Shown: positions 34,031 to 37,000 of the stretch, one piece after another
How positions within the stretch are numbered: the first letter of the stretch is position 1
How the letters are laid out: each line of letters begins with the position of its first letter
Source of the DNA: Siniperca chuatsi
Taxonomy: Eukaryota; Chordata; Actinopteri; Centrarchiformes; Sinipercidae
NCBI RefSeq assembly: GCF_020085105.1
Contig: NC_058051.1
Location: 22,565,955-22,629,954 of the forward strand
Reading direction: 5' to 3'
Length of the DNA stretch: 64,000 nucleotides
Position numbers and translations under genes: made by a program
Notes under the pieces: generated by a model
Database searches by the model: none
What the model was told of the DNA's origin: nothing
The model's input: only the letters and a program-made list of their open reading frames with translations

Positions 34031-37000
34031 CTACATTGTCAACTCCTGCAGAGGGAACAAAAAAGGTTTGTTAGCATGTGTTAAAAAGTATTCCCCACAA
34101 TTTAAAGAATTTCTCTCTTCTCAGGACAGAAAGGCTGGCTTCAGTATACTCAGAAGAACGAAAGTCACTGTATTAATCATCACTGAAGAGTTCTCCGTAC
34201 ACATTTGTCTACAGAGATCTGAGCAAACCATTTAAAATGGCCTGTTGAATAAAGACTCCAAAGCATTTTACTACCAATACAAAATGTTTTTGAAATCTTA
34301 CCATAATAGCATTGACAATGTCGTTGTTGTTGTTTTTCAGGGCGCGTACAGCCTTCGCCCGCGACACGTTGGCTTGTGACATAACGAGTTCAATGTCCTT
34401 GACCTCAACTCCGGTCTCGTCAACCTATAAAAATAAGGGGATTTGTTATATCTCGTATGATAAAACATATGTCAATCTTCAAAAAAATAAAATAAAACAT
34501 TGCATCTTACCTCTTCTTCTTCGCTCTCTTCCTGTACTGTTGGCGTCTGTGTGTTTTCCTGGATGTTTGATACAGCTTCTCCCTGTACCTTGAATTTTTC
34601 TGCGGCAGCTAGCTGGGCTTGCTGGGAAAGATCTTCGATCTAGGGCACAAAGAGAAAGTAACATGAGAAATCAATGCATCATCATTTGGGCAGAAAAAAA
34701 AAAAAAATCAGCTGGGAACATTTTGTACCATTTTGACCATCCCCATGGTAACATTACCTGAGTCTTTAAATTAATATTCTGATGCCTTTTAAAAAGCTAA
34801 GACTAAAGGTGGTTAGTAAAGTTTCTGGCTACATACCTTTGCTTCACCAAAGACGATGTATGTGTCTGATGCAGGGCTCTTGTAGACATCTGGTTTGGTA
34901 ATGACAAACAGGATGTTCTTTGATTTGCGAATGGTGACCCTGGTGACCCCTGTTACCTGCCTGAGACCAAGCTTTGACATCGCCTGCAAGAAATACATTT
35001 TACAAATGTGGCCAATTTTGACCATTACAAAGAAAGCAGAAAGTGACAATAACATTAATGAAACACTGTCAGATCATTACCTTCCGCGCCTTCTTTTCAC
35101 TGCGGCTCTGTTTGGCTTTGCTGACAGGTTCCTCGTCTATTTCGGCAGCTGCTGCAAGCTATAAGAGAGAATAGTCATCCACATTTTATGTCAACGTTTG
35201 AATACGAGTAGATACAAAAATGTAATGCTAGTCATTGTGTAAACACTTTCTCTTCTCAGGACAGAAAGGATGGCTTCAGTAGACTCAGAAGAACGAAAGT
35301 CACTGTGTTAATCATCACAGAAGAGTAAAGGACAAATGTTTTACATAAGCAGCAGATGTTGTAATGATCTTTTCCATTTAGGTTCAAGTCAACAGTGGAC
35401 ACAACATTCAAGGCCAGACTGAACCCTCACCTGAGCCTGCTGTGTCTTTGTAGAGTCCTGTTCCTCCAGCTCAGGGACTGAGTCATCGCTGTCCGATTCA
35501 GTGCCGGATCCTACAGAAACCACCAACAGAAACCAAAATTCAGCCACTAATTATATATGTAAACCTGCAAGTTATTCTGAAAATATGTTGCATAAATCCT
35601 GGGGAATTAAAATAGGTAGGTTAATAGTGATTCAAAATACAGTATGTTTGTTGCGAGATGAAACACCCACCTAACATGGAAAATGTCAAGTAAATTTGTA
35701 GGTTAACAAGAACTGTAATAAACATTAACTTGGTGTTTCAAAAGGGTTACTTTGATTACAGCCATGTAACTTCAAATCTAAACTACTGTGTACTCTATGT
35801 TGAAAACAATACCCTCCTATCCAATACCACATTTACCAGACTGACACTAGACTCGCTAACTAAAAAAAACTGACCATTAGACATATGATCGCACAAATGA
35901 AACAGCACATCATGGCTGACAGTATGCAACAGCAGAACTGACAGGAGCATCTGTGTCAAAAACTAGGTAGCATCTTTGAACAAAGAGTTTAAGATCTAAG
36001 CAAAGCTAATGAATACTTTACAACCTTGGCTTTTTAAGAGAACAATATTTCTAAGCATTCGGCAGGTTCCCAGAATGCAGTGACAGAAAAACAGATGGCA
36101 CAAAGAGAAAGAAGAAAATACCCTTGTCGTTCTTGATCACAGTCTCCACCTTGGCTGGGGTTTTAGCAGGTGTGGGGGAAGGTTTGGGTGACAAGATGGG
36201 TTCAGAAGGAGTTCTACAGATTACCTCAACCTCAGGCTTAACAGGGGCAGGTGTTGCAACTGCCTCAGCAAACGTGAGTTTACGGGGAGCTGGGGCAAGA
36301 ACAGCAGGCTCAACTGGAGAGGGTTTTAAGGGCATAGATGAAGGCTCAGTTGCTGGTTTGAAAGGCTTGGCAACCTCAGCAGGTGCTGCCTTAACCTCAA
36401 CCAACTTGGCCTCAGTAACTGGCTCAGCACCCTTCACAGGGGCCGGCTTGGTAACCTCAGCGGCAGCTGGCTTGACAACCTCAACAGGGGCAGGCTTGAC
36501 CTCTGCATCTGACTTTGTAATCTGAGGATGAGCAGCAGCTTTAGTTTCTTTAACTTGTTTAACCTCAACAGCAGCTGGCTTAGCAGCCTCAGCGCGAGCA
36601 GGTTTGGCCTCAGCAGCTGGCTTAGCAGCCTCAGCGCGAGCAGGTTTGGCCTCAGCAGCTGGCTTAGCAGCCTCAGCAGCTGGCTTAGCAGCCTCAGCGC
36701 GAGCAGGTTTGGCCTCAGCAGCTGGCTTAGCAGCCTCAGCAGCTGGCTTAGCAGCCTCAGCGCGAGCAGGTTTGGCCTCAGCAGCTGGCTTAGCAGCCTC
36801 AGCGCGAGCAGGTTTGGCCTCAGCAGCTGGCTTAGCAGCCTCAGCGCGAGCAGGTTTGGCCTCAGCAGCTGGCTTAGCAGCCTCAACGCGAGTAGGTTTG
36901 GCCTCAGCAGCTGGCTTGGCCTCAGCAGCTGGCTTAGCAGCCTCAACGCGAGTAGGTTTGGCCTCAGCAGCTGGCTTAGCAGCCTTAACAGGAGCAGGTT

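Follow-up and report, generated by a model that had tools for sequence, protein, structure and literature searches.

The window, a stretch of 64,000 nucleotides from contig C10 of the Siniperca chuatsi genome, carries the genes baz2a, ptges3, naca and prim1 in this order, with all of the exons found on the minus strand, together with an aquaporin-like exon (Table 1). We take this block to correspond to the human block at 12q13.3 minus ATP5F1B, which in human presumably lies between BAZ2A and PTGES3. A reverse-transcriptase domain (PF00078, E 5.1e-31) at 43534-44259 on the plus strand marks a retroelement fragment; it is flanked by the first coding exon of naca on one side and by the prim1 exons found on the other, and lies on the strand opposite to both.

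Table 1. Features of the window (contig C10) and the two atp5f1b genes located elsewhere in the genome.
Feature	Coordinates	Strand	Evidence or remark
Aquaporin-like (MIP) exon	near 0.5-0.7 kb of the window		
baz2a, bromodomain and PHD-finger exons	8669..9546	minus	similarity to BAZ2A and BAZ2B structures in the PDB
ptges3 exons, downstream of naca	28374..29994	minus	similarity to prostaglandin E synthase 3 structures in the PDB; tblastn match to an approximate PTGES3 sequence
naca coding region	34031..41594	minus	exon matches, translation; best of the six NAC-domain matches in the genome
naca first coding exon, MPGEATETV	41526-41594	minus	within the naca coding region
naca large repetitive exon	about 36051-39642	minus	Ala/Glu/Lys/Pro-rich repeated units
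naca further exons	35431-35511, 35081-35158, 34837-34983, 34511-34639, 34302-34424	minus	exon matches
naca intron with the upstream SNORD59 (272 nt, GT..AG)	35159..35430	minus	exon matches, geometry
SNORD59 box C/D snoRNA, upstream copy in transcription order	35250..35325	minus	RF00273, 81.5 bits; boxes, stem, guide
naca last intron, with the downstream SNORD59 (256 nt, GT..AG)	34046..34301	minus	exon translation, geometry
SNORD59 box C/D snoRNA, downstream copy	34115..34190	minus	RF00273, 80.6 bits; boxes, stem, guide
naca last exon, ELTM-stop	ends near 34031	minus	exon translation, NAIM followed by ELTM-stop
prim1 exons, upstream of naca	46085..47652	minus	PF01896 (primase small subunit) in two frames
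atp5f1b gene, first	C12:14447447-14450573		nine pieces over profile positions 2-462
atp5f1b gene, second	C24:14299091-14301816		nine pieces over profile positions 2-462

The alpha-NAC protein encoded by naca can be read exon by exon, including the exon for the NAC domain, through to its last residues. Its large exon is presumably of the muscle skNAC type; an antisense frame within this exon is open for 414 codons (36532-37776, plus strand). A second NAC-alpha-like gene, which we assume to be nacad-like, is found on contig C9 at about 14765186-14766355; it has short introns and is 81.6% identical to naca in the NAC exon.

Two introns of naca each harbor one box C/D snoRNA gene. Of 4227 Rfam families, only SNORD59 (RF00273) matched the window at its gathering score (45 bits for this model), with one match at 35251-35324 (E 1.3e-16) and one at 34116-34189 (E 2.4e-16), both of which cover the full length of the family model (1-73/73). 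The covariance model thus bears out the U59 identity that a preliminary description of this DNA had proposed on the basis of the guide. The further elements listed there are likewise present in both copies, with box C (GTGATGA) at position 8, box D' (CTGA) at position 38 and box D (CTGA) at position 67 of each 76-nt core, a terminal stem of 6 bp (CTCTTC/GAAGAG) and a 13-nt guide preceding box D', the guide and D' box being identical to the Rfam consensus. A permissive Rfam scan of the window yielded six rows, comprising the two SNORD59 genes and four rows below their own cut-offs: SpF10, SraG, Vax2os1_3 and a SNORD53/92 row that overlaps the upstream SNORD59 copy.

Each copy lies in its own GT..AG intron, flanked on both sides by naca exons, with the upstream one placed in the intron that directly precedes the exon encoding LAAAAEID. 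The assignment of naca as host gene, made earlier from the letters, therefore stands, as does the description of the pair as lying on the sense strand, provided that this term is read relative to naca, since both the snoRNAs and their host are on the minus strand of the window. Intronic C/D RNAs are usually found 70-80 nt from the 3' splice site, and the distances of 91 nt for the upstream and 69 nt for the downstream copy are near this usual spacing. The two cores differ at only four of their 76 positions, and the local alignment of the two introns ends shortly past them. Because the similarity stops just outside the cores, the copies look, at the sequence level, like the products of an old duplication of which the functional part has been kept. 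Few differences within the cores, together with an alignment that ends soon after them, form the pattern expected under selection or gene conversion.

These features make it very probable that the pair represents genuine SNORD59 (U59) genes with ordinary function. Both would be transcribed as part of the naca pre-mRNA; after splicing, the introns would be debranched and trimmed by exonucleases that halt at the snoRNP assembled on the C/D stem, thereby releasing the mature RNA, which would be expected to carry fibrillarin, NOP56, NOP58 and 15.5K. The D' guide would then direct the 2'-O-methylation of a conserved adenosine of 18S rRNA (A1031 in human numbering). Paired with an approximate 18S stretch, the 13-nt guide forms a perfect duplex that places an adenosine opposite its fifth nucleotide. 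That the two stretches are instead dead or chance sequences appears highly improbable: their folding energies do lie at the level of shuffled sequences (z 0.58 and -0.52), but boxes, stem and guide are intact in both copies, and both occupy introns in sense orientation, with a suitable spacing to the 3' splice site. Since C/D RNAs have little internal pairing, we regard the folding energies as uninformative and count them as evidence neither way. As an RNA, SNORD59 is an ordinary member of an old and well-known family. A table in PMC3511168 equates U59 with RF00273 and the modification Am1031, and gives snR54 of yeast and AtsnoR59 of Arabidopsis as its counterparts; the same paper counts U59 as one of the old C/D families.

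When the 719-Mb genome was searched with RF00273 and 60 of 191,461 first-look candidates were scored, two matches emerged, both of them in naca; at this depth of scoring, weaker SNORD59 copies elsewhere in the genome could have been missed. Rfam gave no snoRNA row for the 20 kb that surround the second NAC gene on C9. As expected, a pattern scan for stray SNORD59 copies gave zero hits in each of two contig collections without vertebrates, one viral and one genomic.

The host gene is what sets this genome apart. Human SNORD59A and SNORD59B (U59 and U59B) belong to the same Rfam family and likewise form a pair in a single host, but this host is ATP5B (ATP5F1B), located at 12q13.3, and their target is listed as 18S A1031 (PMC3766210), in agreement with the human host that the preliminary description had given. 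The chicken U59 gene (GGgCD22), which is listed beside human U59A/B, is described as a single copy in intron 2 of ATP5B that guides 18S A989 with a 17-nt 5' guide (PMC2653536). Thus, SNORD59 is hosted by naca in this genome, as opposed to the ATP5B host reported in human and chicken. The suggestion that an ancestral arrangement was lost in mammals is better put as its absence in human and chicken, since ATP5B also serves as host in chicken and is therefore not a mammalian peculiarity (PMC2653536). The broader interpretation, which left room for either a change of host or an ancestral arrangement, is supported by our results, which fit either of its branches.

If the two lineages differ in their hosts, the whereabouts of atp5f1b become relevant. 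The absence of this gene from its place beside naca, noted earlier, is confirmed at the level of the whole genome: the F1-beta profile TIGR01039 matches 18 exons, nine on contig C12 and nine on contig C24, and none on C10, the contig of the window. A tblastn search of the window for a relic of atp5f1b with the nine exon pieces from C24 gave one match at E<=0.1. This match (E 0.029, 24% identical, plus strand) was taken as chance. Similarly, 15 short motifs of ATP synthase beta and other proteins had no match in the six frames of the window, although introns can split such motifs. Neither of the two atp5f1b genes shows signs of hosting the snoRNA. Up to an E value of 1, Rfam gave two rows for the 60 kb around them (30 kb each), and these are not snoRNAs; blastn with SNORD59 and its guide against these regions, and against the 20-kb surroundings of the second NAC gene, returned chance-level pieces (best E 0.068).

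Each atp5f1b gene has a VWA/collagen-VI-like gene as its head-to-head neighbor, and these two neighbors share 174 aa at 76% identity. On the other side of both genes lies a further common match of 25 aa (E 8e-07); a search of one strand per gene detected no Pfam families on this far side. A frame similar to the retroelement fragment of the window is found beside the atp5f1b gene on C24. Since both copies have neighbors in common, the separation of atp5f1b from naca appears to predate its duplication, and the pair looks like duplicates of a segment that was already away from naca. The duplication itself probably corresponds to the teleost genome duplication.

These observations bear on the direction of the host change. 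In one scenario, to which we give about an even chance, naca is the ancestral host in bony vertebrates, and ATP5F1B entered the block on the way toward amniotes, taking over the snoRNAs by local duplication or recombination. The VWA/collagen-VI-like neighbor and the 25-aa match common to both atp5f1b copies are in line with this scenario, as they place the gene away from naca before it was duplicated, but they would also be explained by a relocation in which atp5f1b left the block on the stem of the ray-finned fishes. Such a relocation is the core of the reverse scenario, in which an ATP5F1B gene within the block was the original host, atp5f1b left the block in the ray-finned lineage and the snoRNAs were kept through a local move into naca. 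This course of events is plausible, if a little short of an even chance. It agrees with the ATP5B host common to human (PMC3766210) and chicken (PMC2653536) and with the finding that SNORD59 in the present genome still resides in the old neighborhood; a relic of atp5f1b was not found in the window, but this point weighs little against it, as relics need not survive.

Common to both scenarios is a local handover of SNORD59 between the neighboring genes naca and atp5f1b, at a point close to the base of either the ray-finned fishes or the tetrapods and coinciding with the entry of atp5f1b into the block or its departure from it, and this is the reading that we favor as rather probable. The switch was probably local, with naca as host being drawn from a single fish genome, that of Siniperca chuatsi. 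A short-range move within the gene block would be likelier than two unrelated insertions, because in the human block ATP5F1B is found near NACA. A vertebrate genome of this kind has some twenty thousand genes, so that a snoRNA would be unlikely to land by chance so near its other host. This mode would also resemble what has been described for box C/D snoRNAs in PMC8178906, according to which copies mostly arise by recombination in cis, although SNORD59 is not mentioned there.

That snoRNA genes may occupy different hosts in different vertebrate species is already published (PMC3349704), and the case described here is of the same kind; the mobility of snoRNAs has further been characterized as ongoing and general (PMC3511168). 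Neither SNORD59 nor U59 was found in the main text of PMC3349704, nor ATP5B or NACA in that of PMC3511168, nor naca or snord in that of PMC6954239, which deals with the snoRNA hosts of zebrafish. In the literature searched, which included few subscription journals, NACA was not found as a named host of SNORD59. It is quite possible that naca has been listed earlier as the SNORD59 host of fishes, either in the supplement of PMC3349704, which covers 1352 vertebrate C/D genes, or in automatic annotation.

Studies of snoRNA mobility usually focus on long-range retroposition or on duplication inside one host. By seemingly staying in its block and yet having another host here than in human and chicken, the SNORD59 pair provides a tractable case for analyzing how intronic snoRNAs change hosts. 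If the local handover took place, the same guide RNA would now be under the control of a translation-factor promoter in one lineage and of a mitochondrial-enzyme promoter in the other, making it possible to ask whether the host promoter alters snoRNA dosage.
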